From assembly GCA_003697085.1 (NCBI GenBank), contig RFFU01000074.1, forward strand, positions 146,600 through 199,724: DNA of 53,125 nt, in the 5' to 3' direction. The stretch comes from Candidatus Hydrogenedentota bacterium. GTDB taxonomy: Bacteria; UBA8481; J006. Positions 4,027-53,125 of this stretch are shown here, one piece after another. The notes under the pieces are model-generated. The model worked only from the letters and a program-made list of their open reading frames with translations, did no database searches and was not told the DNA's origin. The position numbers and the translations under genes were made by a program. The stretch's first letter is position 1. Every line of letters begins with the position of its first letter.

Positions 4027-7000
4027 ATGAGTAAGCGATCGGTTGTGTTCCTTTGCCTTATGGTGTTTTTATGTGTGCTTTCCGGTTCAGGTCATGCCTT
4101 AACCTTCGATGAATTCCAAAATCTTCCGGATCAGAAGATTGAAATTCGGAGATCGTTGGGAGTGAGAAAAGCCGTCCCCGTTGCTTCGGATCGGATTCTG
4201 GTTGTTCTGGGAATGGACATTACGGGGGCGTTTGAAAATCCCTTGTCCTATCGCATCGTATCTCTCGAGGACGAAAATTATTCTTATGAGAAATTCGTCA
4301 AGCCCGTTGAAGTTTTGAAAGTCAATGAAGTAAAGGAGAGCAAGGGGGCGGAAGGTGCTCTGTTTCGGCCGTTTATGCGGACGGAAGTAACGTTGAGCAT
4401 TCCTTACCCGATGAAGGCGGGGAAACGGTATTTTGTCGTCGCCCAAGGGCATCGGGAGACGATGGTGACGGGGGCGCACACCGCGGCATCCTTTGTTTAC
4501 GAGGGTCCGATCAAGGCTTTTTCCTACGATAATACTCTGGATCTTGCGGTTCTGGGGTTGAGAGGAATTGAACCGGTTGGGAATGGAATAATCAAGCTGA
4601 GTTTCGGGCCGGATTTCTCCTTTGAAAAGGGAAAATTGATTCGGAATTATTCCGTGAAAATCAATGGGGAAGAGACGAGAATTCAAAATTTGGGTCTTTA
4701 TCGAAACATCGAGGCGTACATCCAGGTGGGGTGGCCGCCCCGGGCGGTTCCCTATGAGGAAGTCTTTCTCCAACTGGCGACCATCTACAAGAGCGGCGAT
4801 AAAATCGAAGTCGAGGTTTCGGAGGAAGTTACGGCGTCAAATCGGATGGCCGAGATCGTCTTTGACGATCTAGAGACGTATTCCCGATCATTGAAGGTGA
4901 ATCAGGTGGGCTATCTGGTGAATTCCCCTGTAAAAATCGCTTATCTCGGAAGGTGGCTTGGTTCTTTTCCGGAGAAACAACCCAGTGAAACGGGAGGGGC
5001 GGGAAAGGATGTCGGTGCCTTGGAGGAGAATTTTTGGAGTGAGTTGGAGGGGGAAGGAAAGAAGAACGGGGCGAAGGACCAAGAGGGACGGAAGGCGGGC
5101 GCGGGAGAAAGGGTCCCGCCGGCTCTCTTCTTTCCGGGACCGCCGGAGTTTCACATAGTAAAGCGCGGGACACGAGAGGTTGTTTTTACAGGGCAAACGA
5201 GGTTGATCCACAAATCAGGGGAATTCGATGAGGGCATTTATCATTATGACCATTCTGGTGAAAATGTTTATGAAATCGATTTTTCGGATTTTCGGGAGCC
5301 CGGTGAATATTTTATCAGTGTGCCCGGCGTCGGTCGAAGCGTGGATTTTGAGATCGCTGACACCGTCTACGAGAAGGCCTTTCGCGCCGCTGCGTCAGGC
5401 GTTTTCAAGCAGAGGTGCGGCATTGAATTAGCACCTCCTTATTCTCCGGACTGGTACCGCATTCCTTGTCACAAAAAGGGGATCATTGCTGTTACTCAGA
5501 AAAAATATCTTCCTCACGATTTTAGAAAGTTGGACAAGATGATTGATTTTTCTCGCGTGAAATCGGGGGAACCCAGCCCGGAAATCATTGCTTTGAATAG
5601 GGATCGCAAACTCCTGGCCTATTATCCTTTCGACCGGGATATGAAAGACCACAGCGGTCATGGTTATGATTTGCGTCCGGTGGCCGTCGCCTCGGGTTAC
5701 GAGCGGGAGGCGGCTTTGATGCCCGGTGAAAATTATACTTATGGACCGACGGGTGAAGATACAGGGACGGGGCTCTATACGGACGAAATTCCTCCGGAGA
5801 AGATCGATTTAAAGGATGGTATGACGATTACGATGTGGTTTCGCGACAAGGGGCTCTTTCAATTCCAGGGACCTATTGTAGGGTTTTTCGAGAAAAAGCC
5901 GGGTTGGTCGAAACCGCAGTTGGGGCTTTCAGCAAATTGGGGTGTCTTTTCCGCGGCGGTCGGGGGGGGTGATCGAAGCGGAGGTAACGTTGGAAGATGG
6001 AGTGATGGAAAATGGCACCATTTCGCGTTGGTCGTGGATCCTCAAAAAGGAATGGGGAACAGTTCCTCGGGAGGGAAAAAGAGGAGGAGACGTAAGGAAA
6101 AAGGACCGCGGATAAGGAAGATTGGGTCAAGACATCACCGAGGGAAAAACGAGCAAGAGGAAGAGGAAAAGAAAAAGCGTCAGGGTGTTTATGACAAGAT
6201 TCCTTATCGTATTTACGTCGATGGGCAGGAGATGGCTCACGGAGAAGGAAGCGGAGACATCCGTGCGTCGCGGTTTTACATTATGAACGTCGGCCGGACA
6301 CAGCGAGGAGGACTGGGGGGGAAGAACTGGGACGATGTGCGGATCTACACGCGGGCGTTGAGGCCGCGGGAGATTCGAAGTTTGGCGAGAAAGGAAGGCT
6401 TGGAGGGACTCAAAATCGCTGCTTTCGGTGGCCACCATGATGCCGGTGACTACAACCCTCGCTCCCATATCGATGTAGCACAACGATTGATGGATGCCTA
6501 TGAGATCGCCCCGCGGAAGTTTTATGACGGACAACTGAATATTCCAGAGAACAACAATGGAATTCCCGATATCCTCGATGAGGCTTATTGGGCGATGCGC
6601 TTATGGGAGCCGTTGCAGGATGAAGATGGTGGTGTGTTTAACGGTACGGAGTCTAACGGTGACCCGAATTTTATTCAGACGGTGGAACTTGATCCCCTGG
6701 GAGATTTTGCGTATGCCAAGGACGCTCAGGCCTCTTTCACGTTAGCGGGGGTGTGGGCGCAGGCGGCCCGCATTTGGAGAAAAATCGGGCAGGAGGAGAA
6801 AGCGGATGGATTTTTGGATCGGGCGGTTCGAGCTTACGATTGGGCGAAAGCGCACCCTCCGACGGATGTGAGAAAAGGCCCTCAGTTTGCAGACATTTAT
6901 ATTTCACCTCAAGCGTATGCAGCTGCGCAGTTGCTTCATACGACAGGGGAAGAAAAATACAACGAAGATTTTATTAATGTCGCCGTCTGGGCGAAAAAGC

Positions 7001-7626
7001 CGGATGCGAAACTGTCTGTCTATAAAAAATATAATCAAGAACTGGCCGCGTGGGCCTACGTCAATTGTCCGGAGGATATTGTGGATCCCGATCTTCAGGA
7101 AACGATCCGGAATGCTATTCTGCGGGAGGCGGATTATTATATCGAGAAATCGGGAACGATGGCCTATAAGTTCATCCGGCATCCAGAGGCGCCGATTGTA
7201 TGGGGGGTTGGAGCGTATGAAAACTTCCTCCATCCGGTGTATTGGGCCTATAAACTGACCGGGGAGGAGAGATACAGGGAGTGGATGGTTCGGACCGCGG
7301 ACAATACATTGGGGGATAATCCTCTGAGTCTTAGTTACATAGTCGGTTTAGGGGAAAGAACGATTCGGGCTCCGCTCCACAACAGCCGTTTTGGTTTTTT
7401 AAAAGGGGAAGTGGCTTCGGGCCTCCAATGCCAGGGACCGAATGAACAAAACCCCGGATATCGTATGAACGAGATAGCCTACCCCAAAACGGAGCGGAAA
7501 TTCGCGGCGTTGTACCATTATGCGGATGCTCACATCGCGATAGCGATGAATGAGGGGACGATGGGGTCGTTGGCCAATACGATGGCTGCTTTCGGCCTCT
7601 TGCTTCCCGACCACGAAGAGCAATAA
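4027..7626 (+). CDS. Secreted GH9 cellulase with a LamG-like domain inserted in the catalytic module
   Basis: Begins with a signal peptide (MSKRSVVFLCLMVFLCVLSG, cleavage probably after GHA), preceded by AGGGGAGG about 8 bases before the ATG. Residues 30-280 are an unrecognised beta-rich region. An Ig-like domain starts at VNQVGY (about 290) and carries a low-complexity Gly/Glu/Lys insertion (about 320-370). The GH9 module starts with RCGIELAPPY near 465 but is interrupted at about 527-790 by a LamG/concanavalin-like domain (LLAYYPFDRD, DGKWHHFALVVD, IYVDGQE, DDVRIYTRALRPREI). The GH9 fold resumes with GGHHDAGDY at 801-809 (Asp805, Asp808) and ends with the acid Glu1176 in AMNEGTM. The homologue at 2-1885 has only a short linker where the LamG lies. 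Inside the LamG is a Lys/Arg/Glu-rich tract (about 684-718). The enzyme is probably exported by Sec and then T2SS. At 1199 residues it is far longer than usual; all catalytic residues are present. Confidence 0.93.
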   Translation: MSKRSVVFLCLMVFLCVLSGSGHALTFDEFQNLPDQKIEIRRSLGVRKAVPVASDRILVVLGMDITGAFENPLSYRIVSLEDENYSYEKFVKPVEVLKVNEVKESKGAEGALFRPFMRTEVTLSIPYPMKAGKRYFVVAQGHRETMVTGAHTAASFVYEGPIKAFSYDNTLDLAVLGLRGIEPVGNGIIKLSFGPDFSFEKGKLIRNYSVKINGEETRIQNLGLYRNIEAYIQVGWPPRAVPYEEVFLQLATIYKSGDKIEVEVSEEVTASNRMAEIVFDDLETYSRSLKVNQVGYLVNSPVKIAYLGRWLGSFPEKQPSETGGAGKDVGALEENFWSELEGEGKKNGAKDQEGRKAGAGERVPPALFFPGPPEFHIVKRGTREVVFTGQTRLIHKSGEFDEGIYHYDHSGENVYEIDFSDFREPGEYFISVPGVGRSVDFEIADTVYEKAFRAAASGVFKQRCGIELAPPYSPDWYRIPCHKKGIIAVTQKKYLPHDFRKLDKMIDFSRVKSGEPSPEIIALNRDRKLLAYYPFDRDMKDHSGHGYDLRPVAVASGYEREAALMPGENYTYGPTGEDTGTGLYTDEIPPEKIDLKDGMTITMWFRDKGLFQFQGPIVGFFEKKPGWSKPQLGLSANWGVFSAAVGGGDRSGGNVGRWSDGKWHHFALVVDPQKGMGNSSSGGKKRRRRKEKGPRIRKIGSRHHRGKNEQEEEEKKKRQGVYDKIPYRIYVDGQEMAHGEGSGDIRASRFYIMNVGRTQRGGLGGKNWDDVRIYTRALRPREIRSLARKEGLEGLKIAAFGGHHDAGDYNPRSHIDVAQRLMDAYEIAPRKFYDGQLNIPENNNGIPDILDEAYWAMRLWEPLQDEDGGVFNGTESNGDPNFIQTVELDPLGDFAYAKDAQASFTLAGVWAQAARIWRKIGQEEKADGFLDRAVRAYDWAKAHPPTDVRKGPQFADIYISPQAYAAAQLLHTTGEEKYNEDFINVAVWAKKPDAKLSVYKKYNQELAAWAYVNCPEDIVDPDLQETIRNAILREADYYIEKSGTMAYKFIRHPEAPIVWGVGAYENFLHPVYWAYKLTGEERYREWMVRTADNTLGDNPLSLSYIVGLGERTIRAPLHNSRFGFLKGEVASGLQCQGPNEQNPGYRMNEIAYPKTERKFAALYHYADAHIAIAMNEGTMGSLANTMAAFGLLLPDHEEQ

Positions 7627-13173: not shown

Positions 13174-13281
13174 CCTTTTTATAAGGTAGGAAAGGATTCC
13201 GGAAGGATTTTCGGTGGATGTTGGTTTTGGAGGAGAGTATCTCCGGCGGGGGAAGGGAGTGCAGAGAAGGAGAGGGTCGTC

Positions 13282-18321: not shown

Positions 18322-21300
18322 GTGAAGACGGGAAAAGGCGGACAATTTCATCAAAAACGGGGTGCCGTTGATATTATGAAATGTGGGATTCTCCTCTTAG
18401 CTTTCGGGATGACGGTGCTTGCGGCTTCGGCCAGGGTGAATATGGATTTTGAAGACGCATCAGTTGAGGAGATTGTTACGAATTTGTTTGGTGCCGAGGG
18501 GAAACGGTTTGTGGCAGAGGAGCCTCTTCCCCAGCAGAAAAGCACGATTCATGTGGAAAACTCGGATTTCGACGAAGCCTTATCCGCGGTTCTCGAGAAG
18601 ATCGGCTTTTCTTTTCGTGTGGATGAGAGCGGGGTTTACCATTTATTTCGAGAAGAAGGGCGGAAAGAGAAAGCCGGTACGTCGGAAGAGGCGACTTCAG
18701 GGAGAATATCGTTGGAGTTTAGTGGTGATGTACGGGAAGCGGTTCAGTTGGCTTTTGAGCAGCTGACCAAAAAACCAGAATACGTCATTATGCCCGAGGT
18801 TGGGGGAAAAACGGAGGTGAACTTTCGCGACAAGGATTTGAAGACGGCGTTAAAGCTCATTTTGACACCGCGGGGATATGAGGCCGTGGAAAAGGACGGG
18901 GTAATCTGGATACAGAAGGGAAAGCGTTCGAGGGAAGGGAAAACCGGGAGCAAGAAACGTGATCTGGTTACGAAGATTATCGAGGTAAAGAAGCCCGCGG
19001 AGAAGTATAAAAACATTGTAAAAAATTTGTTGACGCCGGGAAGAGGAAAGGTTGTCATCGACAAAGATTTCAACCTTGTAATAATAACGGATACGAAAGA
19101 AAAGATCGCGGAAATAGAAAACGTCATTTCCCGGTATGACACAAGAGAAGAGGGGGAGAGGGAAAAGCGGCCGGGTCAGGGCGAAAAAAAAGGAAGGGCG
19201 GACGAGTTTGTTACGCAGATTTACAAGGCCCAATACAAGAGTGTCGGTTTTCTCGAAAAACGCGTTCGAAAATATCTTAGCCCAGATGGAAACATTTATG
19301 CGGACGAGGAAGAGGGGACGTTGGAAATCGAGGACAAGAAATCGCATGTGGACAAGATTCTCTACGCGTTGAAAACATATGATATTGAGAAAGTTCGGTA
19401 TGTAACAATAAAGAAACAACTAAATTTTTCGAAAGCAGAAGATTTGGTTGATGAGTTGCGGGATATTTTATCATCCGATGCGCAGGTGACATTTAATGAG
19501 AGGACGAATAGAATCTTTGTCCGTGAAACCGAAGAAAACGCCGATCAAGTCGTCGAGTTTCTCAACGATGCGGATCAACCTCCGTTGCAGGTGTCTATTG
19601 AGGCGACCATCTTGGATTTGCAGTTGTCAGGGGACAATGAATTCGGGATTGATTGGCAGGCGGTTTTTAATTCGATGAATCCCATGGGGTCGAATTTTGC
19701 CGTGGGAACAAATCTTATTACGGATATTACGGTTGATAATCCCCAATTTGTTGAATACCAGAGAGATATGAACGGCAACCTGATTCTGGGGGCGAACAAC
19801 GATGCAGTACCCGTATCTCACACTCCCGGGTCCGTTGTTGGAAATCGACAAGGGGCGTTCGTGTCTCAGGTCCAGCTTCACAATGTCGATTTGTTCGGGC
19901 ATAAGGACCTGATAAAGGTGTTGACGGCGCGGTTATTGGCTTCGAAGGTCATTTCGAAGGCGGATATTCTGGCATCTCCGAAGATCAACGTGATCAACAA
20001 CGAACAGGCTTTGATCGAAGTAGGCTCGAAGATTCCTTTCGTGACATCAACGACAACGGGAGGTGCGGCGACGGAGAATATTACGTTTGAGGATGCTGTT
20101 CTGAGCCTGGAGGTAACTCCAACGATCAACCCGGATCACATTGTGAATATGCGAATTGATTTGACCAATGATCGTCCCGGTCCGAGCGTGAGATCGGATG
20201 TTAACGTGCCAGTTATCTTAAAACAGCATCTGACAACCAATTTAGATGTTAAATCGGGCAATACGGTGATATTGGGAGGATTGGATCGGAAAACCATTGA
20301 TGAGGATAAGACGGGGGTTCCGATTTTGATGGATATTCCCCTTCTCGGACGGCTTTTTTCGAGAAAGACGAAAACCCAGGTAAAAAGAGAGTTAGTTCTT
20401 TTTATTACGCCGACGATATTACCGTCTCCTTACGAAAATGACAACACGAAAGAAGCCCTTCGAAAAAAGCGGGAACATGAATTTGTTGACGAAAAGCCTG
20501 TTCAGTTTGTGGAGGCGTTCGTAGAACCGGAGGAATTAACGATATCGCGGGATCCTGATTTTGCCGGCGATACGCTTCGTGTGACATTTCGTGTCGATAA
20601 AGAATTGCGGGCTGATCCGATGGTTCTTGTGGCGGGGAGAAAAGCGAGAAAAATGGAAGCAGACGGGAAATCCTTTTCCTACGCATTTTCCCCCGGGGTG
20701 AATTTCCCGCAAGGAAGGAATGAAGTTATGATCAGGGTCGAGGACAAGGCGGGAAATGAAAATTCGATACAAATTCCTTTTTCCGCGTATTTAGAGAGGT
20801 TTCCACCAGAGTTTACAAACATAAAACAAAGCCCTCGTCCCGGGGTGATGGGAGAAGAAATGGAAATCTCTTTTCGAGTCAACAAAACATTGAAAGAAGA
20901 GCCGAAAGTCCGTGTGGGGGGGAAGGATCTTGTTTTGGAAAAAGCGGGGCCGCGGTCGTATCGCTATAAGTTTCAGGTTCCGATGGCTCCGCGGGAGGGC
21001 AGATACCGTTTGGAAATTGAAGGAATAGATCTCGACGGGAATGTAGGGAGGACGACCACGGGGGTCGATATCGTCTTTGAAAAGACCCCACCCAATCTTC
21101 AGTTTAAATCGGTGGTTCCGGCCACGGTTGCCCTGGGAGAAACACTTGAGGTGAATGTTGTTTCGAATGAGGCTTTGCGGAGACCTCCGGTACTCCTTAT
21201 CAATGGTCACACAGCGAACCTGACGTATTGGGACACGAGAATACATTCCTTTACGTTTCAATATCGTCCTTCGGAAGTTTCAGAAATAGGTCGGGTGCCG

Positions 21301-22950
21301 ATTAAGGTTCGAGGGATCGATAAGGTTGGAAACCTCGGCGAGGCGAGCGATACCATTCGAATAATCGGCGATCATATCCCGCCGGTGGCAAGGGAGATTC
21401 ATCTTAAACCGAAGTGTCTCGTTTACTACCCCGGCGGCAAAGCATCGCGGCTGCTTCTCGGCGTTGATTTTACTGAAGATTTGGCCGAAGAGCCACACGT
21501 ATATTTCGGAAAGAAACGAGGCGAAATACGCAGACATGAGGGGCGGCATTATGAGTATGAGTACGCCTTCAAAACGAAAAAGACGGATGAAGAAGAATTA
21601 AATATCAGAATCGAAGCGGTGGACGAATGGGGGAACCATTCGGAAACGACGATTCGCGTCCCTTTGAGGGCGGAGACCGAAGCGCCTGAGATTACAGAGA
21701 TCACAGTGGAACCAAGGGAGGTGGTGATTTATCCCGGGAACAGAAAGAAAAGAGCAGAGGCGATAATACGGTTTAAGGTGTCGGAGAAGTTGAAAGGGGA
21801 TCCTCTTGTCACGGTGGGAGGTCATTTGGCGCGCAAGATCAAGGAGGAAGGAGGAATATATCTGTACAAATTTGTTCTCGGAAGACATTCTTCAGAGACG
21901 GGAGTGCGGCCGGTGAGAATTGTAGTCACGGACTTGGCAGGCAATAGTACAGAGGTCTCGGATGAAATAGAGTTTGTATTGGAGAACGAGCCGCCCGCTT
22001 TTCGGGATTTGCGGGTTCTTCCGAAAGCGGAGGTGATGCTGTATCCTGGGGATCCAAAAAAGAAAACGAGAATCATTCTATTAAAGTTTGAGGCCAGCGA
22101 AGAGTTGAGGGGGGATCCGGAAGTAACGGTTGGAGGTAAACCGGCACAATTTGTAACGCGTTCCGGACTTAGATATACCTATCGGGTGGGGATTGAATCA
22201 GCGGATACGCGAGATTTTCTGGACGTAATTGCGGCGGGACGGGATTTGGCCGGGAATTTCGGCCGAGAGCGTATAGGAAAGATAAGGTTGGTTCGGGAAA
22301 CAAAGCCGCCGATTGTCAGGAAAATTAAAGTTGAACCGAAAAGTGTTGTGGTGTACCCCGGGCAACCGGAAAAAAACAAGGAGATTGAGATTCTTTTCGA
22401 AGTGGATGAACCATTAGGAAAAAATCCCGAGGTTTACGTAGGGGGAAATCCGGCGCGTTTTGACCCGAAAACCTCGGCGGCACCATTCCTTTTTGGGTTT
22501 TCTTACCGGCCCGGCCGGGAGGAACGCGAAGGTGCCATACCGGTAGTTATTAAAATTCAGGATCTAGCAGGGAACAAAACTTCGTTGGTTCGAAAGGTCA
22601 TTTATCGTTTTGAAAAAGACCCCCCGGTGATATCGGATGTTCACCTAGTAGGGAAACCTCTGTTGGGAAGTTGGATCAAGATCATATTTCGTGTGAATGA
22701 AACGCTTGTCGAACCGCCTTCTGTAATCGTTTCAGGACGGCGTGCCTCTTTTGAGAATTATGATTCAAAGAAACGGGAGTATGTTTATCGGTATCATATT
22801 CCTCGGAAAACGGGATCGCCTCAACTTTATGTTGAGATTGTCGCCCGTGATCTCGTTGGAAATGAGGCGACATTTTCGGGAAACCTTCCGGCTCATCCGG
22901 GGGCGTTATCCTACGGGGAAACAGTAAAAGGAAAATGGCGGGGGCGATAG
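18322..22950 (+). CDS. gspD: T2SS outer-membrane secretin GspD with eight C-terminal Ig-like repeats
   Basis: Forms the outer-membrane channel of the T2SS. The start is GTG at 18322 (purine-rich site upstream) or ATG at 18376; both give the signal peptide MKCGILLLAFGMTVLAASA. Two N0/STN-like domains follow (VNMDFEDASVEEIVTNLF and ISLEFSGDVREAVQLAFEQL), then three N1-type repeats (KYKNIVKNLLTPG, YKSVGFLEKRVRKYLSP, AEDLVDELRDIL), then the secretin core (LEVTPTINPDHIVNMRIDL, TNLDVKSGNTVILGGL, GVPILMDIPLLGRLF, ELVLFITPTIL) to about residue 705. Ordinary GspD ends here at 600-750 residues. This one continues for about 800 residues with eight Ig-like units of roughly 100 residues, each opening near a PP or AP pair, with a V.VGG..A core and a closing D.aGN motif. 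The spacing of 28 bases from the previous gene and 19 to the next shows one operon. Confidence 0.92.
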   Translation: MKTGKGGQFHQKRGAVDIMKCGILLLAFGMTVLAASARVNMDFEDASVEEIVTNLFGAEGKRFVAEEPLPQQKSTIHVENSDFDEALSAVLEKIGFSFRVDESGVYHLFREEGRKEKAGTSEEATSGRISLEFSGDVREAVQLAFEQLTKKPEYVIMPEVGGKTEVNFRDKDLKTALKLILTPRGYEAVEKDGVIWIQKGKRSREGKTGSKKRDLVTKIIEVKKPAEKYKNIVKNLLTPGRGKVVIDKDFNLVIITDTKEKIAEIENVISRYDTREEGEREKRPGQGEKKGRADEFVTQIYKAQYKSVGFLEKRVRKYLSPDGNIYADEEEGTLEIEDKKSHVDKILYALKTYDIEKVRYVTIKKQLNFSKAEDLVDELRDILSSDAQVTFNERTNRIFVRETEENADQVVEFLNDADQPPLQVSIEATILDLQLSGDNEFGIDWQAVFNSMNPMGSNFAVGTNLITDITVDNPQFVEYQRDMNGNLILGANNDAVPVSHTPGSVVGNRQGAFVSQVQLHNVDLFGHKDLIKVLTARLLASKVISKADILASPKINVINNEQALIEVGSKIPFVTSTTTGGAATENITFEDAVLSLEVTPTINPDHIVNMRIDLTNDRPGPSVRSDVNVPVILKQHLTTNLDVKSGNTVILGGLDRKTIDEDKTGVPILMDIPLLGRLFSRKTKTQVKRELVLFITPTILPSPYENDNTKEALRKKREHEFVDEKPVQFVEAFVEPEELTISRDPDFAGDTLRVTFRVDKELRADPMVLVAGRKARKMEADGKSFSYAFSPGVNFPQGRNEVMIRVEDKAGNENSIQIPFSAYLERFPPEFTNIKQSPRPGVMGEEMEISFRVNKTLKEEPKVRVGGKDLVLEKAGPRSYRYKFQVPMAPREGRYRLEIEGIDLDGNVGRTTTGVDIVFEKTPPNLQFKSVVPATVALGETLEVNVVSNEALRRPPVLLINGHTANLTYWDTRIHSFTFQYRPSEVSEIGRVPIKVRGIDKVGNLGEASDTIRIIGDHIPPVAREIHLKPKCLVYYPGGKASRLLLGVDFTEDLAEEPHVYFGKKRGEIRRHEGRHYEYEYAFKTKKTDEEELNIRIEAVDEWGNHSETTIRVPLRAETEAPEITEITVEPREVVIYPGNRKKRAEAIIRFKVSEKLKGDPLVTVGGHLARKIKEEGGIYLYKFVLGRHSSETGVRPVRIVVTDLAGNSTEVSDEIEFVLENEPPAFRDLRVLPKAEVMLYPGDPKKKTRIILLKFEASEELRGDPEVTVGGKPAQFVTRSGLRYTYRVGIESADTRDFLDVIAAGRDLAGNFGRERIGKIRLVRETKPPIVRKIKVEPKSVVVYPGQPEKNKEIEILFEVDEPLGKNPEVYVGGNPARFDPKTSAAPFLFGFSYRPGREEREGAIPVVIKIQDLAGNKTSLVRKVIYRFEKDPPVISDVHLVGKPLLGSWIKIIFRVNETLVEPPSVIVSGRRASFENYDSKKREYVYRYHIPRKTGSPQLYVEIVARDLVGNEATFSGNLPAHPGALSYGETVKGKWRGR
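20521..22900 (+). repeat. Eight Ig-like protein repeats in the secretin C-terminus
   Basis: The encoded units end, in order, at EDKAGNEN, DLDGNVG, DKVGNLG, DEWGNHS, DLAGNST, DLAGNFG, DLAGNKT and DLVGNEA. Units 4 to 7 also share a YPG turn near their start (VYYPGG, VIYPGN, MLYPGD, VVYPGQ). Divergence between units is high, so this is an old array, not a recent DNA duplication. Confidence 0.85.
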
Positions 22951-43441: not shown

Positions 43442-43552
43442 TTCTTCCGGACTGTATCCCTGCCGGGAGGGTGAGAAACGAGAGAGGAACGGGGAGAGGA
43501 GAGGAGGGGGAGGGAGCGGACGTCACCGAGAGGCCGTCGCCGGAAGGAAGGA

Positions 43553-46500
43553 GTGCATTCCGAGGCACCGGTGGAATCGTCGGCGAACTCCCGGCCTTTG
43601 TCTTGGAAGCGTTTTCTTTTTGTCCTGGGAGGACTCTTCTTTTCTGCGGTTTCGGTGCTTGCGGCGCCGGTGGTTCCGGTCACGTGGACGACGGGTACGG
43701 ATTTCACGGATTCAATTACGGCTTTCGGGCCGGTGGTGCGGCCAGTCTTCGGGGACGGAGCCGCGGAGTTGGGCATCACGATCGTCAACGACACGATCGG
43801 CCCGAACAATATGTGGATCCGCTCATTTTTCTCCTACAAAGCCGACACGCTTTTCGCCGGAGGGTTCGACAACGGCGGGCCGAATGATCTGGCCCCGTTT
43901 TTCGAGCGGACCTCGTCCGGGTGGACGTTCCGGGGATACGTCGGGCCGAGCGGTTCTGGGAACAAGGACGAACTCTGGTGGGGCACGATGTACAGCGACA
44001 CGCTGTGGATCGGGGTCGGGAGGCCCTTGGCCGGCGGCGCCGACATCGCCGTCACGTACCGCTACAATCCCGCATTGGACACATTTGTCTTCGACGTAAG
44101 ATGGACCGATTCAACGACGCTGAACTGGCGGCGGTTTCGCGAGGACGTGGCGCAACTCGGCGGGATACTTTACATCTCGGGACGGACGACGGGGCCAGGT
44201 GGGAACAACAACGGGGCGGCGTATGGTTTGACGGACGGTATCAACTACGACGCGCGAACATTAAAACAGATCTTGGGGCGAACGGCGAACTGGGGGAACG
44301 ATCTGGCGGCGATCGTCGAGTACGGGGGTTTGCTCTATTTCACGCCGGATATCGCAGGCGGATCGGAACGAGACATCGGGCGTTCGAACGGTGTCTTCGC
44401 CGGTTCGGTGATCGCGACTTTGAGCGAGGGGATTTTGAGTCTGGCGCGGTTGAACGACGGAACGGTGGGGGACACGCTTTTTGCCGGAGGTGTCAACGGA
44501 ACGCTCTTCCGCTCGACGGACGGAACGACGTGGACGACGATCGGGGACATCAACGGGGCCGGCGCGTTCTCGATCGACGACATCGATAAATTCGGGCCGG
44601 ACCTCTGGCTCTCCTCGGAAGCCGACAACAACTTGTACCGATATGTAGCGCGTTACGACACGGCGGTTCTGATGGGAAGCGTGGGTGGTGTGAACTTCCG
44701 GCCGTACACGAAGTACGCCTCGGCGGTCACCGGGGACACGTGGCTCTACATCGGCGGCGAAGACAACGGTGTACCGCGTGCCGAGATCTACCGCGTGCAA
44801 TTTCTCGATTCGGGGACCTGGACGTCGGACACGATCGACCTGCAGGATACGACGGGGTACACCCACAACGTCGGCGATTCGGTCGAGTTTTCTGTATTGG
44901 AGAACGCGGGAACCGTGACGGTGGTGGTTTTTACCTGGCCGGAGGGAGCGGACACGACGACGCGGAGCACGGCCCGGGCGGAGACCTTCACGTTTTCGGG
45001 CCAGACCTTCCTGAATCCGGATACGCGGCCTTCGAATTCGTTTCGATACCTTCAGGTGGACGTCCATTTCGAGGCGCCGTTAAAGGATGCAACACCGATA
45101 TTGGAATCACTGACGATTCACGTTCACGGAGACACTGCGCCGCCGCCAACGGTCACGAACCGCTTCCCGCTGGATAAAACCGAAACCAATATCGTTGACC
45201 AAACCTTCCGTTGGAACGCGGAGAACGACTCAGTGCCGGGCGTGGTAGAGAGCGGTCTGGACACGTACGTCTTGCAGATTTCGCGCGATTCCTCGATGGC
45301 CGTCATCGATTCTTCCTACATTCTGTTTGGTGACACTCAAGGGGTCGTATCCTTCGGGCCGGTACCGCTTTTGGGAGACACGGTTCACTTCTGGCGGGTT
45401 CTGGTCGTCGATACAGCGGGGAACGTAGCGACGGGTGAGACCTACACACTGACGGTGGATGTAACGCCGCCGAATCCGGGAGCGGACACGGCGTTGCAGC
45501 CGCTGGACTTCGAAGACACGACGGAACGCACTTTGACATTGCGATGGCTCACGGCGATCGACACGCTTTCGGGGATCGCGCGGTACGTGGTCGAGCGGGA
45601 TTCGGGAGCGACACTCGGGTTTATTTCCCCGGTCACCGACACCGTTTATCCTCCCGATACCTTCTTGGCGATCGATCTGTTGGGGTTGTCGAAGACGGAT
45701 ACGTGGTTCTGGCGGGTGACGGTGTACGATTCCGCGACGAACGCGACAGTTTCCCCGATCTTTTCCTTCCGCGTCCGGACCCAAGCCGCCGTTTTCCTGG
45801 AGGATTCGCGCGGCGTGGTGGTGACGGATTACACGGTACGAGACACGTTCACGGTGGTCGTGGCGGATACCGACCGGAACCGGGATCCGGCGGTGGCGGA
45901 CACGTTGCGGGTGACCGTGGCCACGGCGGCAACCGGCGACACGAAGAGCCTTCTGCTGACGGAGATCGGCGTGAACGCGAATCTCTTTTCGGGAACGTTG
46001 ACGTTATCGGACACGACGGAGAACGGTTTTCTGTTGGCGGCGGTGGGGGACACAATCCGTGTGCTTTACGAGGACAGTATGCCGCCGTTTCAGCCGATCG
46101 AGACGGGGGAGACGTACGGGCGAACGACGCGCATCTCGACGAACGGCATGGCCGGCTTCGATTCGACCGGATACCGGATCTTCGAGACGCCAGTGACGAC
46201 GATCACCGATCCAGACAGAAACCGCGATCCGCGGCGCCGGGACACCGTCAGTGTGCTGATCTGGAACAAGACGCGGAACGATTCCGAGGCGATCGTGTAC
46301 CGGGAAACGACGGACACATCGGGGGTCTTTTCCGGCGACACACTGTGGATCAGCGATACGATCGGAGAGAACTCGGGCGACTCGATTCTCTTCGCAGGCC
46401 CGGGAGATATCTTAATTTTGGATTATACGGATGCGTACGACGGAGCGGACACGGGGCGGGACACGGCGACGGTCGTGCGGACTTTCCGCTCGGCTTCCGG

Positions 46501-49500
46501 GACGGCCGTCGATTCGCGGCTGGTCTCGGTCGATTCCGCCGCGCCTTTCGATACGTTGGGATTCCGAGTCACTGATCCGGACGGGAATGCGGATGTCGCC
46601 CTGCGCGACACGATCGCCGTCCTCGCGAGGAATCTCACGACGGGGGAGACGGAAATTTTCGTTCTGGTGGAGACGACGGAGACATCGGGGATTTTCGGGC
46701 CGGACACGGGTGTGGCGACGTCGCTTGCGCCGGCCGATTCCGTGTCCGGAACAGGAACGCTCTTCGGGATTCCCGGCCAGACGATCCGCCTGGAGTACGA
46801 GGATGCCGGGGATGCTTCGGACACGGCGGCCGACACGATCGTGATCCTCTTCCGGCCGACGAACGGCACCGTGCGGTTGACCGACTCGTTAGGTAGCCCC
46901 GCCGACACCGCCTCACGCGATTCCACCCTCTCGGCGACGGTGAGCGATTCGGATCAAAACCGGGACGGTGCGATTCCCGAGACGGTCGGTGTCGCGGTCC
47001 GCTCGGTGCGTGCGGGAGATTCGGAGACGCTGACGCTGACCGAGACGGATTCGAACTCGGGCGATTTCCGGAATCTCGTGGCACTTGCGATAACGGATAC
47101 GGGAGCGGGCGGAGTTGGAGACGGGATTCTGACCGTCCGACCGGCTTACGATACGATCTTCGTCGAATACCGGGATGACGCGGGACGCGTTTCCGACACG
47201 ATCGCCTATCGGTTCACCCGTTCGCGTTCGCGGATGCAGTTCATCGACAGGTTCGGGAAAGCGGCGGATCAATTCACGAGCGGAGAGACGATCAGCGCTC
47301 GGGTGTACGACGAGGACCAGAACGCCACGGTGGCGAGCGAAGGGAGCGCGGAAACGGTCGCGGTCTTCTACTATCACCTCGGTACGGGAGACAGCGAGAA
47401 GGTCGTTCTGCGTGAGACGGCGAATCTGAGCGCCCAGTTTGACTCGGTTGTCGGTATACCCACCTCGGCCAATCCGCTCGATTCGCTTCCCTTCACAGGA
47501 GTCCTGTTTGCCTTGCCGGGAGATACGATCGTGGTCCGATACACGGATCCCGCCGACGGAACGGACACCCGGGAACTGATCATCGTTGCATCCTCGACGC
47601 CGACCTCCTCGAGCGCGGACTTCACCGACTCGGTCGGAAGTTCGGTGGCGACCTATGCGCTGCCCGACTCGAGAGTCTATGCCACGGTCGCGGATACGGA
47701 CGAGAACCTCTTTCCGGGAGGGTTGGATGACATCACGGCGACGTTCTGGTGTCCGGCGACGAACGACACGGAGACGTTGGTTCTGACGGAGACGGGGAAC
47801 GATTCCAATATCTTTCGGAACACGACGGGTCTTCCGATCTCGGATACGCTCGGTTCGGCGGTGAACGACGGAGTTCTTCTTGTGGGGCGCGCGGATACGA
47901 TCGTTTTCGTGTACGAGGATCCGAACGATCCCAGCGATTCGGCGACGGTGACGGCGGACCTTTCCGCGTCGACAACGCCGGCCACGGTGGCGTTTGATTC
48001 TTCGGGGTATCTTGCTCCGACGACGATGACGATCGTGATCACGGATGCGGATCGGAATTTCGACCCGCGAACGGCGGAGACATTGGGGATCGCGATCCGA
48101 GGCTTGATCGCGGGGGATTCTGAGACGATCACGTTGACGGAGACGACGGAGACATCGGGGGTCTTTTCCGGGAGCCTACCGGTCTCGAATCTCGCCGGAG
48201 CAGGAGCAGGAGACGGGACCTTGATGGGGGGGTTGGGCGAGACGGTCCAGGCCGAATACGCCGACAGCGTGAATCCAGGAATCGATACCGGTGTGGACAC
48301 GGCGATCGTCTTTTTGGCACCGACGGCTTCCCGCGGTGATCTTCTCGACAAGACGTTGCTTGCGGTCGATACCGCCTTGCGGGCCGAGACGATCACCGCG
48401 CGCGTGGTGGACGCCGATGCCAGTATCGATCCGCTTGCAATCGACACGGTGGGCGTGATCTTCGAGAACGTGCGGACGGGGGAGACGGAACCGTTGGATC
48501 TGTTCGAGACGGCGGTGAGGGCGGAGACATTCGTTTCGAGAGTCGGGATCGCGCTCTCCGGTTCGTTGTCCGATTCCCTCACGGGAGACGCGTTGTTGTA
48601 CGTCGTTCCGGGTGACACGGTTCGACTTCTCTACGTGCAGGGATCCGATACGGCGGGCGACACGATGTTGATCACGGTGGCTCCTTCGACGGGTGCGGTC
48701 GTTTTCCGCAACGGTTCGGGGGCGGTCACCGACACGGCGAAGGTCGGGGCGGATTCACTCTTCCTCACATTTGCCGACACGGATCGGAACCGGGACGGAA
48801 CGCGCGCGGAGACGGTGCTGGTGGTCTTGACGGTGAGCGGCACGGGAGACGGCGAGACGGTCGTCTTGACGGAGGAGGATCGGGATTCGCCGGACTTCCG
48901 GTTCACGGGAGGTGTACCGGTAGTGGACACGGCGGCGGTCGTGGTCCAGGACGGAATTTTGGTGGCGGGGCCGGGAGACACGATCGAGGCTCTCTTCACG
49001 GATCCGGACAACGGCGACACGGCGTTCGACACGGTGCTGGTGACGGCCAACCTGCGCGTTTCTTCGACACGCTTTCTTCCGATCGGGGTTACGACTTACA
49101 CGACCTCGGATTCGACACGTGTCGAAGTGATCGATCCGAACGCGAATCACGATCCGACGGCGATCGAGACGGTCGCGGTTCTGGTGACGAATCCTCGGAC
49201 GGGGGAGACGGAGCCTTTGGATTTGTTCGAGACGGGGCCGTACAGCGGGGTCTTTCGCTTCGAGACGGGGCTGCCGCATTCGACGAATGTCCTCGATTCG
49301 GTTTCGGCCACCGGTGTCCTTTATGTCGTGTCGAGCGACACGATCGAGGTGCTCTACGCGGACGCGGACGATGCTGCGGACACGGCCTTCGACACGGTCT
49401 TGATCGTTCCGCCGCCCTCGAACGGGTCGGTCATCTTCAGTGATTCCTTCGGCAACTCCATCTCGACCTATCCGATGGATACGTTCCTTTACGTTACCGT

Positions 49501-52500
49501 TCAGGACACGGATCGCAACGTCAACGGCGCGGCGATCGAGACGATCACGGCGGTGGTCTTCGATACAATGACGGGGGACACGGAGACGGTGAATCTCGTC
49601 GAGCAGGGGGCGAATTCTTTCCTCTTCCGGAATGCGGTGGCCGTGAGTCTTTCGGACACGTTGGGAGCGGTGGTCGACGACGGAGTGCTCTTCACCGGCA
49701 CCGTACTAACGATCCAGGTATTGTACACCGATCTTCTCAACGGGGACACCGCGGCGGACACGGCGAATCTCACGCCGGCGGTCACGAGCGCCTCGTTGCT
49801 TCTGGACCGTTCCGGTTATGCTCCGGAGACCCGCGTCATTCCGACATTGACGGATCCCGATCGAAACAGAAACCCGCTCCTACCCGATTCGGTCTCCGTA
49901 ATCGTCTCGTCCCCCTGGCGGGCGGATACGGAGACATTCGTGTTGACGGAGACGACGGACACCTCGGGGGTCTTTACGGCGGCGTCGGGCTTTCGTCTTT
50001 CGGACACGATCGGTTTCGCCGTCGGCGACGACACGTTACTGGTTGCTCTGGGAGACACGTTCCTCGTGAGTTATTCGGATGCCTACGACGCCTCGGATAC
50101 CGCCGAGACGGTCGGGGCCGTCCTGGCGCTCAACACTTCCTCGACGGTCGCCTTTGACTTGCCGGGATATCAGGTAACGGATTCGGTGGTGGTCTTCGTG
50201 ACGGACCGCGACCGCAACCTCGACCCGCGCGCCTTCGATACGATCGTGGCGTTGGTATGGAATCCGAGGGTTTCGGATACGGAGACACTGGTTCTGACCG
50301 AGACGGATTCGGCTTCGCTGACCTTCCGCAACGATACGGTGACGCTGAAGGACACGGGAGCGGTGACGGTGGGTGACGGATTCTTGCGCGTGGGGAACGG
50401 AGACGAGATCCGGCTGCTCTATTCCGACCCGGTCTTCAGCGACACGAACCTCGATTCGGCTACGATCCTGCCCATTCCGACCGCGGGCGTCGTGTCGGTC
50501 GATACGAACATCGTGTGGAACGGCGAGACCTTCGTGATCACGGTGGTGGACGGGGATCGGAACCTGGATCAAACGGCCGTCGAGACGATCGTGTTGCGCA
50601 ACGCCTTTGTGAAGACGCCGCAGGATGTGATCGTGGAGAATGAATTCCAGACGATCAAACTGGTCGAAACGAGTGATACCTCGGGGGTCTTCGTATCGCA
50701 GCCGATCACTGTCCGCACGGACGTGACCCCGACGCCGGGGGATCGGATTCTTTTGATCGGGCGAAACTACTCGATCGAGGTGGAGTATCAGGATGCGACG
50801 AACGGTGATTTCGACACGACCGGATTGTCGGTGACCTGGTTCCAGGCGGCCTCCTCGGCCTCGCTCGACCGGCCCTTCTATGTTCCGGGCCTGAGGATCT
50901 TCGGGACGGTGAGCGATTCGGACGAGAACGCGGTTCCGATCGCGAAGGACACCGTAACGTTCATCATTCGAAACGCGGGAACGGGGGAGACCGAGGTGAG
51001 AATCGGATACGAAGGCGCGAATCTTTCGGGGATATTCAACGACACGGCGGGGCTTTTGACGAGCGCCTCGGTGAGCGATTCCGTCTCGAACGACGGTATC
51101 CTCTTCATCCGCACCGGCGACACGGTCGTGATCGATTATGCGGATTCAGACAATGCCTCGGATACCTCCACGGACACCGCCACAGTCGGTCTCTCGACCG
51201 ATACGGTCCCTTCGGCAACCTGGTTCAGCAATGCGAACGGCGTGGTTCAGACGGCGTACCGTATGGACTCGCTCGTCTTCATCACGGTCCGCGACACCGA
51301 TCAGAACTTCTCCGGGCTTTTCAAGGAGACGGTGACGGTCGATGTTTACGACAGTATGACGGGCGATTCGGAGCGGATCAAGTTGACGGAGTTGGCGGCG
51401 GATTCGGGAATCTTCCGGAACCAGACCGGCCTGCCGCTTTCGGACACGGTCGGAGCGGTGATCAACGACGGGGTACTCTTCACGGGACCGGCCTTCTCGA
51501 TCACCGTCTTCTACCAAGACGCGCTCGTTCCCTCGGATTCCTCGACGGACACGGCGGGAATCAACCGTCTCCCCAGCGCCTCGTTTCTCTTCTTCGACAG
51601 TCCGTCGTATGCTCCGGAATCGGCGGTGACGGTCTTCGTCGGCGATTCCGATCGGAACCGCAACCCGATCGCCAAGGACACAGTGACGATCACGATCTGG
51701 AGTCCGCGGCGGGCGGACACGGAGACGGTGCTTTTGTACGAGACGACGGAGACCTCGGCGCTCTTCGCCAACACGGCGCCGATCCGTATCTCGGACACGG
51801 AAGGATTCAATGTCGGGGACGGGATTCTGTTGGTGGCGTTGGGAGATACCTTCGCGGCGGGGTACACGGACGCCTACGACGCGACGGACTCGGCGAATTC
51901 GAGCGCGGGGGTCGATACCTTGGGGACGCTTTCGACGGTGGCCTTGGACGCCGTCTTCTATACCGTTGCCGATTCCGTGGTGATCACGGTGACGGATCGC
52001 GACCGCAACCTCGATCCGCGTTCGAAGGACACGGTCGTCGTCTCCGTCCGTAACACGCGCAACGGGGACTCGGAGACATTGACATTGACCGAGACCGATT
52101 CCGCCAGTCTCGCGTTCCGGACGAACCAGTTGAATCTGACGGACACGGGCGCGCCGGTTCCCGGAGACGGGAATCTTCGCGTCGGTCCCGGCGACACGTT
52201 CCTGGTGGAATACAGTGATCCACGGAACGGAGACACGGGAAGCGAGACGGCCGCGATCACAGCGGCTCCAACAGCCGGCCGTGTGATTCTGCCGCTGGGA
52301 ACGGTTACGGACGGGGACACGCTTCCGATCTTCGTGGAGGATCTCGACCAGAATCTCGATCAAACCGCGCGTGACACGATTCTGCTTCGCAATGTTTACG
52401 CGCTTTCTCCCGACAGTGTGATCGTGGACAACGAGTTCCAGACGCTTCTGCTCTTCGAGACGGCGGATACCTCAGGGCTCTTCGAACTTCCCGGCGGTCT

Positions 52501-53125
52501 CAAGATTACGACGGCGCGGGCGCCGAACCCCGGCGACAGTTTCCTGCTCGTCGGATTCAACTTCACGGTGATCGTCGAGTATCAGGACCAGACAAACGGG
52601 GATTTTGATTCCGGATCCGCAACGGTCACGTGGTTCCAGACTCCTTCCTCGGCCGCGCCCGACCGCGCAATTTATGCCGCTGGGATGCGCGTGATCGGTC
52701 AAGTGACCGATACCGATGCGAACCGGCTTCCGACAGCGAAGGATACGGTATTGGTTACCGTGACGAATCTGGCGACGGGGGAGAGCGAGGTGAGGTTACT
52801 GGAGGAGGACGCAGTGCGGTCCGGCACCTTCAGCGATACGCTCGGGCTCCTCCTGACCGTCGATCCCGCCGATTCCGTCTCGAACGACGGAGCCCGTATG
52901 TTCGTCCGGACGGCCGATTCGATCGAGGTGCGCTATCTCGACGCCTTCGACGGTACGGACTCGTCTTCCGATACCGCGCTGATCGGAACTCCCGGCGAGA
53001 CGACGCCCTCGCTGACGACCTTCGTGGACGGAAACGGGAACGCGGTTTCGGTCTTCGCGATGGATTCGCTCGTCTTCGTACAGGTGCGCGACACCGGCCA
53101 GAACCTCAGCGGCGCGCTCATCGAG
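43553..53125 (+). CDS. Giant secreted Ig-like repeat protein, 3'-truncated by the window edge
   Basis: I translated one frame from the GTG at 43553 to the last base without meeting a stop: 3191 codons in the window. The start has GGAAGGA upstream and gives a signal peptide, with basic SWKR, hydrophobic FLFVLGGLFFSAVSVLA and cleavage near LAA-PVV. Residues about 35-500 include propeller-like blades (TLFAGGFDNGG, GGILYISGRTTG, TLFAGGVNGTLFRSTDGTTW). Two FN3/Ig-like domains follow (RFPLDKTETNIVDQTFRW...FWRVLVVDTAGNVATGETY, then LDFEDTTERTLTLRW...FWRVTVYDSATNATVS). From residue 772 at least 21 modules of about 120 residues each carry a DxDxN motif, an ETLTLTET-like strand, SGxFxG and GDTIxVxYxD. 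The modules contain almost no cysteine and are very rich in Asp, Thr and Ser. It could be a surface adhesin, matrix or fibre protein; export by the neighbouring T2SS is only a guess. Confidence 0.9.
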   Translation, partial: MHSEAPVESSANSRPLSWKRFLFVLGGLFFSAVSVLAAPVVPVTWTTGTDFTDSITAFGPVVRPVFGDGAAELGITIVNDTIGPNNMWIRSFFSYKADTLFAGGFDNGGPNDLAPFFERTSSGWTFRGYVGPSGSGNKDELWWGTMYSDTLWIGVGRPLAGGADIAVTYRYNPALDTFVFDVRWTDSTTLNWRRFREDVAQLGGILYISGRTTGPGGNNNGAAYGLTDGINYDARTLKQILGRTANWGNDLAAIVEYGGLLYFTPDIAGGSERDIGRSNGVFAGSVIATLSEGILSLARLNDGTVGDTLFAGGVNGTLFRSTDGTTWTTIGDINGAGAFSIDDIDKFGPDLWLSSEADNNLYRYVARYDTAVLMGSVGGVNFRPYTKYASAVTGDTWLYIGGEDNGVPRAEIYRVQFLDSGTWTSDTIDLQDTTGYTHNVGDSVEFSVLENAGTVTVVVFTWPEGADTTTRSTARAETFTFSGQTFLNPDTRPSNSFRYLQVDVHFEAPLKDATPILESLTIHVHGDTAPPPTVTNRFPLDKTETNIVDQTFRWNAENDSVPGVVESGLDTYVLQISRDSSMAVIDSSYILFGDTQGVVSFGPVPLLGDTVHFWRVLVVDTAGNVATGETYTLTVDVTPPNPGADTALQPLDFEDTTERTLTLRWLTAIDTLSGIARYVVERDSGATLGFISPVTDTVYPPDTFLAIDLLGLSKTDTWFWRVTVYDSATNATVSPIFSFRVRTQAAVFLEDSRGVVVTDYTVRDTFTVVVADTDRNRDPAVADTLRVTVATAATGDTKSLLLTEIGVNANLFSGTLTLSDTTENGFLLAAVGDTIRVLYEDSMPPFQPIETGETYGRTTRISTNGMAGFDSTGYRIFETPVTTITDPDRNRDPRRRDTVSVLIWNKTRNDSEAIVYRETTDTSGVFSGDTLWISDTIGENSGDSILFAGPGDILILDYTDAYDGADTGRDTATVVRTFRSASGTAVDSRLVSVDSAAPFDTLGFRVTDPDGNADVALRDTIAVLARNLTTGETEIFVLVETTETSGIFGPDTGVATSLAPADSVSGTGTLFGIPGQTIRLEYEDAGDASDTAADTIVILFRPTNGTVRLTDSLGSPADTASRDSTLSATVSDSDQNRDGAIPETVGVAVRSVRAGDSETLTLTETDSNSGDFRNLVALAITDTGAGGVGDGILTVRPAYDTIFVEYRDDAGRVSDTIAYRFTRSRSRMQFIDRFGKAADQFTSGETISARVYDEDQNATVASEGSAETVAVFYYHLGTGDSEKVVLRETANLSAQFDSVVGIPTSANPLDSLPFTGVLFALPGDTIVVRYTDPADGTDTRELIIVASSTPTSSSADFTDSVGSSVATYALPDSRVYATVADTDENLFPGGLDDITATFWCPATNDTETLVLTETGNDSNIFRNTTGLPISDTLGSAVNDGVLLVGRADTIVFVYEDPNDPSDSATVTADLSASTTPATVAFDSSGYLAPTTMTIVITDADRNFDPRTAETLGIAIRGLIAGDSETITLTETTETSGVFSGSLPVSNLAGAGAGDGTLMGGLGETVQAEYADSVNPGIDTGVDTAIVFLAPTASRGDLLDKTLLAVDTALRAETITARVVDADASIDPLAIDTVGVIFENVRTGETEPLDLFETAVRAETFVSRVGIALSGSLSDSLTGDALLYVVPGDTVRLLYVQGSDTAGDTMLITVAPSTGAVVFRNGSGAVTDTAKVGADSLFLTFADTDRNRDGTRAETVLVVLTVSGTGDGETVVLTEEDRDSPDFRFTGGVPVVDTAAVVVQDGILVAGPGDTIEALFTDPDNGDTAFDTVLVTANLRVSSTRFLPIGVTTYTTSDSTRVEVIDPNANHDPTAIETVAVLVTNPRTGETEPLDLFETGPYSGVFRFETGLPHSTNVLDSVSATGVLYVVSSDTIEVLYADADDAADTAFDTVLIVPPPSNGSVIFSDSFGNSISTYPMDTFLYVTVQDTDRNVNGAAIETITAVVFDTMTGDTETVNLVEQGANSFLFRNAVAVSLSDTLGAVVDDGVLFTGTVLTIQVLYTDLLNGDTAADTANLTPAVTSASLLLDRSGYAPETRVIPTLTDPDRNRNPLLPDSVSVIVSSPWRADTETFVLTETTDTSGVFTAASGFRLSDTIGFAVGDDTLLVALGDTFLVSYSDAYDASDTAETVGAVLALNTSSTVAFDLPGYQVTDSVVVFVTDRDRNLDPRAFDTIVALVWNPRVSDTETLVLTETDSASLTFRNDTVTLKDTGAVTVGDGFLRVGNGDEIRLLYSDPVFSDTNLDSATILPIPTAGVVSVDTNIVWNGETFVITVVDGDRNLDQTAVETIVLRNAFVKTPQDVIVENEFQTIKLVETSDTSGVFVSQPITVRTDVTPTPGDRILLIGRNYSIEVEYQDATNGDFDTTGLSVTWFQAASSASLDRPFYVPGLRIFGTVSDSDENAVPIAKDTVTFIIRNAGTGETEVRIGYEGANLSGIFNDTAGLLTSASVSDSVSNDGILFIRTGDTVVIDYADSDNASDTSTDTATVGLSTDTVPSATWFSNANGVVQTAYRMDSLVFITVRDTDQNFSGLFKETVTVDVYDSMTGDSERIKLTELAADSGIFRNQTGLPLSDTVGAVINDGVLFTGPAFSITVFYQDALVPSDSSTDTAGINRLPSASFLFFDSPSYAPESAVTVFVGDSDRNRNPIAKDTVTITIWSPRRADTETVLLYETTETSALFANTAPIRISDTEGFNVGDGILLVALGDTFAAGYTDAYDATDSANSSAGVDTLGTLSTVALDAVFYTVADSVVITVTDRDRNLDPRSKDTVVVSVRNTRNGDSETLTLTETDSASLAFRTNQLNLTDTGAPVPGDGNLRVGPGDTFLVEYSDPRNGDTGSETAAITAAPTAGRVILPLGTVTDGDTLPIFVEDLDQNLDQTARDTILLRNVYALSPDSVIVDNEFQTLLLFETADTSGLFELPGGLKITTARAPNPGDSFLLVGFNFTVIVEYQDQTNGDFDSGSATVTWFQTPSSAAPDRAIYAAGMRVIGQVTDTDANRLPTAKDTVLVTVTNLATGESEVRLLEEDAVRSGTFSDTLGLLLTVDPADSVSNDGARMFVRTADSIEVRYLDAFDGTDSSSDTALIGTPGETTPSLTTFVDGNGNAVSVFAMDSLVFVQVRDTGQNLSGALIE
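45866..53125 (+). repeat. Array of at least 21 modules (about 360 bases each) with a five-module super-repeat
   Basis: First codons of the DxDxN motif stand at 45866, 46208, 46574, 46946, 47309, 47693, 48044, 48410, 48776, 49133, 49505, 49853, 50204, 50549, 50915, 51293, 51644, 51995, 52340, 52709 and 53090. Every fifth module repeats its character: distances 45866-47693-49505-51293-53090 are 1827, 1812, 1788 and 1797 bases. The array continues beyond the window. Confidence 0.88.

Follow-up and report, generated by a model that had tools for sequence, protein, structure and literature searches.

The right end of the window, a stretch of 53,125 nucleotides from a Candidatus Hydrogenedentota bacterium, looks like a patchwork of short frames on both strands. 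It raises the question whether a single giant gene lies beneath them, what such a gene would encode and how its product would leave the cell. We found that the giant open frame is a real gene. Comparison of its sequence with known families points, with a probability of about 0.72, to a T9SS-exported cell-surface fibre of about 4684 residues with a co-translated PorV partner, which would be an S-layer-like coat component or an adhesive stalk.

A single open frame in the window

The plus-strand frame at 43553-53125 runs for 3191 codons without a stop. For comparison, the longest open frame in random first-order Markov DNA of the gene's composition (53 kb, 20 trials) had a mean of 392 and a maximum of 506 codons. 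The start codon is a GTG at 43553 with the purine-rich sequence GGAAGGAAGGA immediately 5' of it, and the N-terminus of the protein (RPLSWKR, followed by FLFVLGGLFFSAVSVLA and then AP) reads by eye as a good Sec signal peptide, with predicted cleavage between VLA and AP. The claims of the earlier note on this DNA that one frame stays open from this GTG to the last base, that it begins with a ribosome site and a signal peptide, and that its single product is modular and secreted-looking were all borne out, the product having a signal peptide and a module array. The features of the gene in the window are as follows.

43542..43552, plus strand: ribosome-binding sequence GGAAGGAAGGA, read directly before the start codon
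43553..53125, plus strand: giant gene, 5' 3191 codons; the rest lies on contig C42 (locus L023, minus strand from base 13200)
43553..43666, plus strand: Sec signal peptide, residues 1-38, from the translation by eye
43667..45112, plus strand: N-terminal region, about residues 39-520, with blade-like repeats DTLFAGG, DTLWIGV, LYISG and RSTDGTTW
45113..45793, plus strand: Ig/FN3-like linker, about residues 521-747, with a weak Big_13 match at 591-636
45794..53017, plus strand: 20 complete S-layer-type Ig-like modules, m01-m20, about 117 residues each, with the core VxDxDxNxxPxxxDT..TETxxxSGxF..DGxL..GDTI..YxD
49433..51220, plus strand: super-repeat copy 1 (m11-m15), five modules, from identity by lag
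51221..53017, plus strand: super-repeat copy 2 (m16-m20), five modules, from identity by lag
53018..53125, plus strand: first part of module 21; super-repeat copy 3 (m21-m25) starts at 53018 and goes on into C42

The longest minus-strand frame in the region has 441 codons. After shuffling of the giant's own codons, the longest antisense frame had a mean length of 574 codons (5-95% range 390-890). The observed frame lies within this range, in agreement with the earlier view that the long minus-strand frames are antisense shadows of the codon bias. A second plus-strand frame inside the gene (45544-46575 and neighbourhood) is open for 414 codons, against a 5-95% range of only 133-244 after codon shuffling, and is probably driven by the repeats.

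Modules and their S-layer kinship

The N-terminal region (39-520) matched no family, no homologue in 98 genomes and no PDB entry, and its single-sequence structure prediction had a pLDDT of 37. Its repeats suggest a beta-propeller, a guess made by eye only. Sequence similar to the linker (521-747) is also present in further giants encoded by this genome. The module array comprises 30 modules in the whole protein (residues 748-4329), in which neighbours are on average 31% identical. Identity rises to 40.9% at a lag of five modules, compared with 30-32% at lags of one to four, and 15 of the 30 modules form three copies of a five-module unit (11-15, 16-20 and 21-25). Across 44 module copies, residues D25, E57 and F65 do not vary, and N29, L55, Y97 and D99 hardly do. 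The last 355 residues consist of a pre-domain, common to the paralogue P0002, and the C-terminal sorting domain (CTD).

Among solved structures, the sole confident match of the module profile was the Nitrosopumilus S-layer protein (PDB 8c8k, E 3.9e-17), and a two-module profile matched the same entry with E 9.9e-19. A profile search of one module had been proposed in the earlier note; the profile searches lead to the Nitrosopumilus S-layer, with an E of about 1e-18 for the two-module profile. Structure prediction of modules, also proposed there, was run on two modules and returned the same fold: the AlphaFold2 model had a pLDDT of 92.7, and its best five Foldseek matches were all Nitrosopumilus S-layer (E from 7.5e-16). 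The next Foldseek matches were Bap (C region 7dm0) and macroglobulin-type domains, the latter in accordance with weak MG2 matches of the modules. Judged by profile and structural model, the modules are homologous to the S-layer protein of Nitrosopumilus maritimus. Furthermore, the Kuenenia S-layer model NF052345 matches the giant in nine stretches (177 bits, E 3e-52), far below the family cut-off of 1400. The module-profile search also found two gammaproteobacterial proteins, each containing a single such module, and a whole-protein search against genome contigs found no relative. Hence, the earlier statement that no named family is recognisable is true of the whole protein, but not of its parts, which match S-layer modules and a T9SS type A domain.

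The Nitrosopumilus protein, NmSLP (Nmar_1547; PDB 8c8k-8c8r; PMC11153153), shares with the giant homologous Ig-like modules, the VxDxDxN motif and a similar Asp content, at 10.9% in NmSLP (PMC11153153) and 10.2% in the window part of the giant, in which T amounts to 13.4% and K to 0.8%. In contrast to the giant, which is bacterial and has 30 modules, a distinct head and a T9SS tail, NmSLP is archaeal, has 1734 residues with ten Ig-like domains, and has no reported T9SS CTD. The Nitrosopumilus S-layer is Asp-rich and negatively charged and is disassembled by EGTA (PMC11153153). The Asp motif of the giant's modules probably binds Ca2+ as well. The S-layer glycoprotein Kustd1514 of Kuenenia stuttgartiensis (NF052345; PMC5088730) has 1576 residues, and the paper describing it mentions no secretion system.

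With modules homologous to those of both NmSLP and Kustd1514 and an Asp content close to that of NmSLP, the giant might itself be the main S-layer protein, many copies of which form a two-dimensional lattice as these two proteins do. S-layer export via T9SS is known from Tannerella forsythia (PMC4175972). However, the giant is almost three times as long as either protein, and its NF052345 score remains far under the cut-off. Moreover, the genome encodes at least one paralogue of other length (P0002, 3326 aa, 15 modules), so that no single major protein is evident. We consider a main S-layer protein unlikely and prefer the T9SS-exported surface fibre, in which S-layer modules of archaea and anammox bacteria would be put to use as a T9SS fibre.

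Continuation beyond the contig end

The window reaches up to the final base of contig C106 (199,724 bases), and the frame being open to the last base therefore reflects the end of the assembly. The assembly is metagenome-like (3.2 Mb, 145 contigs). The end of contig C42 repeats the last 99 bases of the window (53027-53125) exactly, and a full-length copy occurs nowhere else in the assembly. The continuation rests on this 99-base overlap and not on reads. It is supported because the join keeps the giant's frame, because GC3 is alike on both sides (0.77 in the window part and 0.79 in the C42 part, compared with 0.46-0.56 in neighbouring window genes), and because the five-module super-repeat stays in register across the junction (m16-m20 versus m21-m25, with 62% identity between m16 and m21).

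On C42 the frame stays open for a further 568 codons up to a single TGA at codon 3760, beyond which another 924 codons lead to its natural stop, a TGA at L023:8620-8622. The earlier count of at least 3191 codons thus holds for the window, whereas the whole gene has about 4684 codons, the in-frame TGA counted. Even this is a minimum, because a further repeat unit of about 1.8 kb could be lost at the contig break, perhaps as a short contig left out of the bin. Such a length is notable, but no record. Extension to the right, as suggested in the earlier note, yielded both the stop and a C-terminal T9SS type A sorting domain.

An in-frame stop had been named beforehand as an observation that would speak against the gene. 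One does exist, but the repeat array and the same frame persist beyond it up to the natural stop. Since related modules often have Gly at this position, the TGA is most likely a single base difference or error. UGA recoding was rejected as its cause, as TGA terminates the giant itself and seven of the 15 window genes checked.

The in-frame TGA could also mark a gene that is decaying or mis-assembled, giving no full-length protein or a population with several lengths, and the contig breaks within the repeat array, both here and in the relative G001, would fit such a history. Yet 4683 other codons are open across 14 kb, the similar GC3 of the gene's two parts argues against it, and a single TGA at an often-Gly module position fits one base difference or error. 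Decay or mis-assembly is accordingly very unlikely in our estimate.

Sorting domain, PorV/PorQ partner and other giants

The C-terminus of the giant matches the T9SS type A sorting domain TIGR04183 with 25.9 bits (29.1 in the genome search; cut-off 23) and the solved PorZ sorting domain 5m11 with E 2.7e-8, while Pfam CTD models gave matches below cut-off only. A type B CTD (PF13585/TIGR04131) was not supported, with PF13585 at 16.6 bits (cut-off 27) and a partner of the PorV/PorQ family, not PorP/SprF. The TIGR04183 search found 13 type A sorting tails in this genome, which also has 16 PorV/PorQ-family matches (14 over cut-off). A 2100-residue ORF on C50 is SprA-like (143 bits, E 5.5e-42, cut-off 200; PF14349 22.9, cut-off 27). 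Such a translocon would be unsurprising in this lineage, because SprA-like proteins occur in 35 of the 98 compared genomes, 20 of them over cut-off. The PorU sortase model NF033707 hits the genome (94.6% complete) by the CTD region only, at best with 33 bits of 420. Judging from these domain matches, a type IX-like secretion system is the giant's probable export route. An adhesin of the RTX/LapA/Bap kind, exported by type I secretion and built of Ig-like Ca2+-binding repeats, would share the repeat architecture, the Asp-rich modules and their structural likeness to the Bap C region (7dm0), but is hardly credible given the Sec signal peptide, the type A C-terminus, the PorV-family gene behind it and the lack of RTX or type I domains among the Pfam/NCBIfam matches.

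The next gene after the giant, outside the window on C42, encodes a PorV/PorQ-family barrel (NF033709 121 bits, cut-off 90), which scores nearer PorQ than PorV but under the own cut-off of each. The stop codon of the giant and the start codon of this partner overlap by four bases (ATGA). The giant gene belongs to a two-gene unit with a PorV-family gene that lies beyond the window and was out of reach of the earlier note. The paralogue P0002 has the same cargo/PorV layout with the overlap GTGA, and the relative G001 shows the same order of module array, pre-domain, CTD and PorV with an ATGA overlap. G001 is the only genome of the same order among those compared; otherwise, none is closer than domain. 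In this genome and G001 together, the -4 overlap was found in 18 of 23 CTD/PorV pairs. With 13 tails scattered by chance over 3.2 Mb, we roughly estimate that fewer than 1 in 1000 PorV genes would have a same-strand tail in the 350 bases upstream.

The distances among CTDs and among PorVs were correlated both in this genome (G000; r 0.51, p 0.003) and in G001 (r 0.59, p 0.011), and the cross-genome best partners of CTD and PorV agreed in 8 of 12 cases. At the level of sequence distances, this correlation shows long-lasting pairing but not binding, because inheritance of linked genes gives an equal signal. In seven distant SprA-bearing genomes, a CTD gene ends at most 350 bases upstream of 40 of the 60 PorV genes, and we rejected the idea that the pairing is peculiar to this lineage. 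The -4 overlap occurs in three of the seven (G030, G072 and G068) and is absent from the other four; only this four-base overlap, not the pairing, is restricted to some lineages. CTDs far outnumber PorVs in genomes with strong SprA scores (for example, 64 versus 11 in G008 and 104 versus 17 in G004); in this genome, G001, G065, G030, G068 and G072, PorVs are about equal to CTDs or more. One more giant cargo, an open frame of 5224 codons, has its type A tail at C34:15410-15664 in G030.

In the T9SS systems described in the literature, the PorV shuttle recognises every type A CTD, with a single PorV for all type A cargo (PMC12618676), and type B cargo such as SprB has a cognate PorP/SprF barrel encoded directly downstream (PMC12618676, PMC9143113). 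The system studied here resembles the type A system of Bacteroidota in its CTD over cut-off, PorV/PorQ partner and candidate SprA-like translocon. It differs in that most cargo genes have their own overlapping PorV/PorQ gene and that no PorU was found. With SprB/SprF it shares a (putative) giant surface adhesin and a dedicated outer-membrane shuttle gene directly behind, but combines a type A CTD with a PorV/PorQ-family barrel instead of a type B CTD with a PorP-family barrel. We found no description of type A cargo with its own PorV/PorQ gene in the literature searched, which was mostly open-access; the arrangement may nonetheless be known. A tentative generalisation, which we place somewhat short of even odds, is that type A T9SS cargo outside the classical Bacteroidota commonly has a dedicated, co-translated PorV/PorQ partner, which would act as private shuttle and lasting anchor instead of sortase-and-LPS attachment, each very long S-layer-like fibre being placed by its own barrel. 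The observed pairing suggests a checkable rule: where a PorV-family gene is located, the gene immediately before it often encodes the cargo. Should the partner prove specific, a second mode, parallel to SprB/SprF, would have to be added to the view of a single PorV for all type A cargo.

For the giant itself, Sec would carry the chain to the periplasm, and the divergent SprA-like translocon would move it across the outer membrane with the CTD as signal. The co-translated PorV-family partner would take the CTD and carry or hold it, so that the 30-module array projects outward with the N-terminal head distal. By analogy with S-layer proteins, Ca2+ probably binds to the Asp-rich loops (DxDxN, conserved E, YxD) and makes the array stiffer. 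The fibre might then serve as an S-layer-like coat component or as a long adhesive stalk; its length and distinct head lead us to favour the stalk. A giant gene of a deep lineage would thereby receive a name and an export route.

Further giants and neighbouring genes were observed in the same genome. The giant gene starts just past the right border of a low-GC stretch of about 74 kb (C106:116500-190000; window 1-43172), with a GC content of 0.47-0.53 versus 0.57-0.62 in the flanks. The low-GC stretch, which covers most of the window, might be either a genomic island or a chimera of the assembly; a scan of border pieces turned up no tRNA. Within this stretch, at L024:9039-19019 (C106:131038-141018), lies the gene for P0002, which shares the local composition (GC3 0.55). 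P0002 is likewise a giant CTD protein; it has a TIG plus propeller-like N-terminus and a PorV gene of its own. More very long ORFs, some of them cut by contig ends, were found at L055 (C62; 3458 codons), L028 (C92; 2609), L027 (C136; 2738), L030 (C96; 2291) and L029 (C140; 1975). On C62, C92 and C96, the ORF carries the same sorting tail at its end and is followed by a PorV gene. Elsewhere in the window, the protein encoded by the 1199 codons at 4027-7626 has a C-terminal half with a CelK-like stretch, and 18322-22950 encodes a PilQ/GspD-like secretin that is far longer than usual (1542 codons), with an OmpL47-type match near residue 983.
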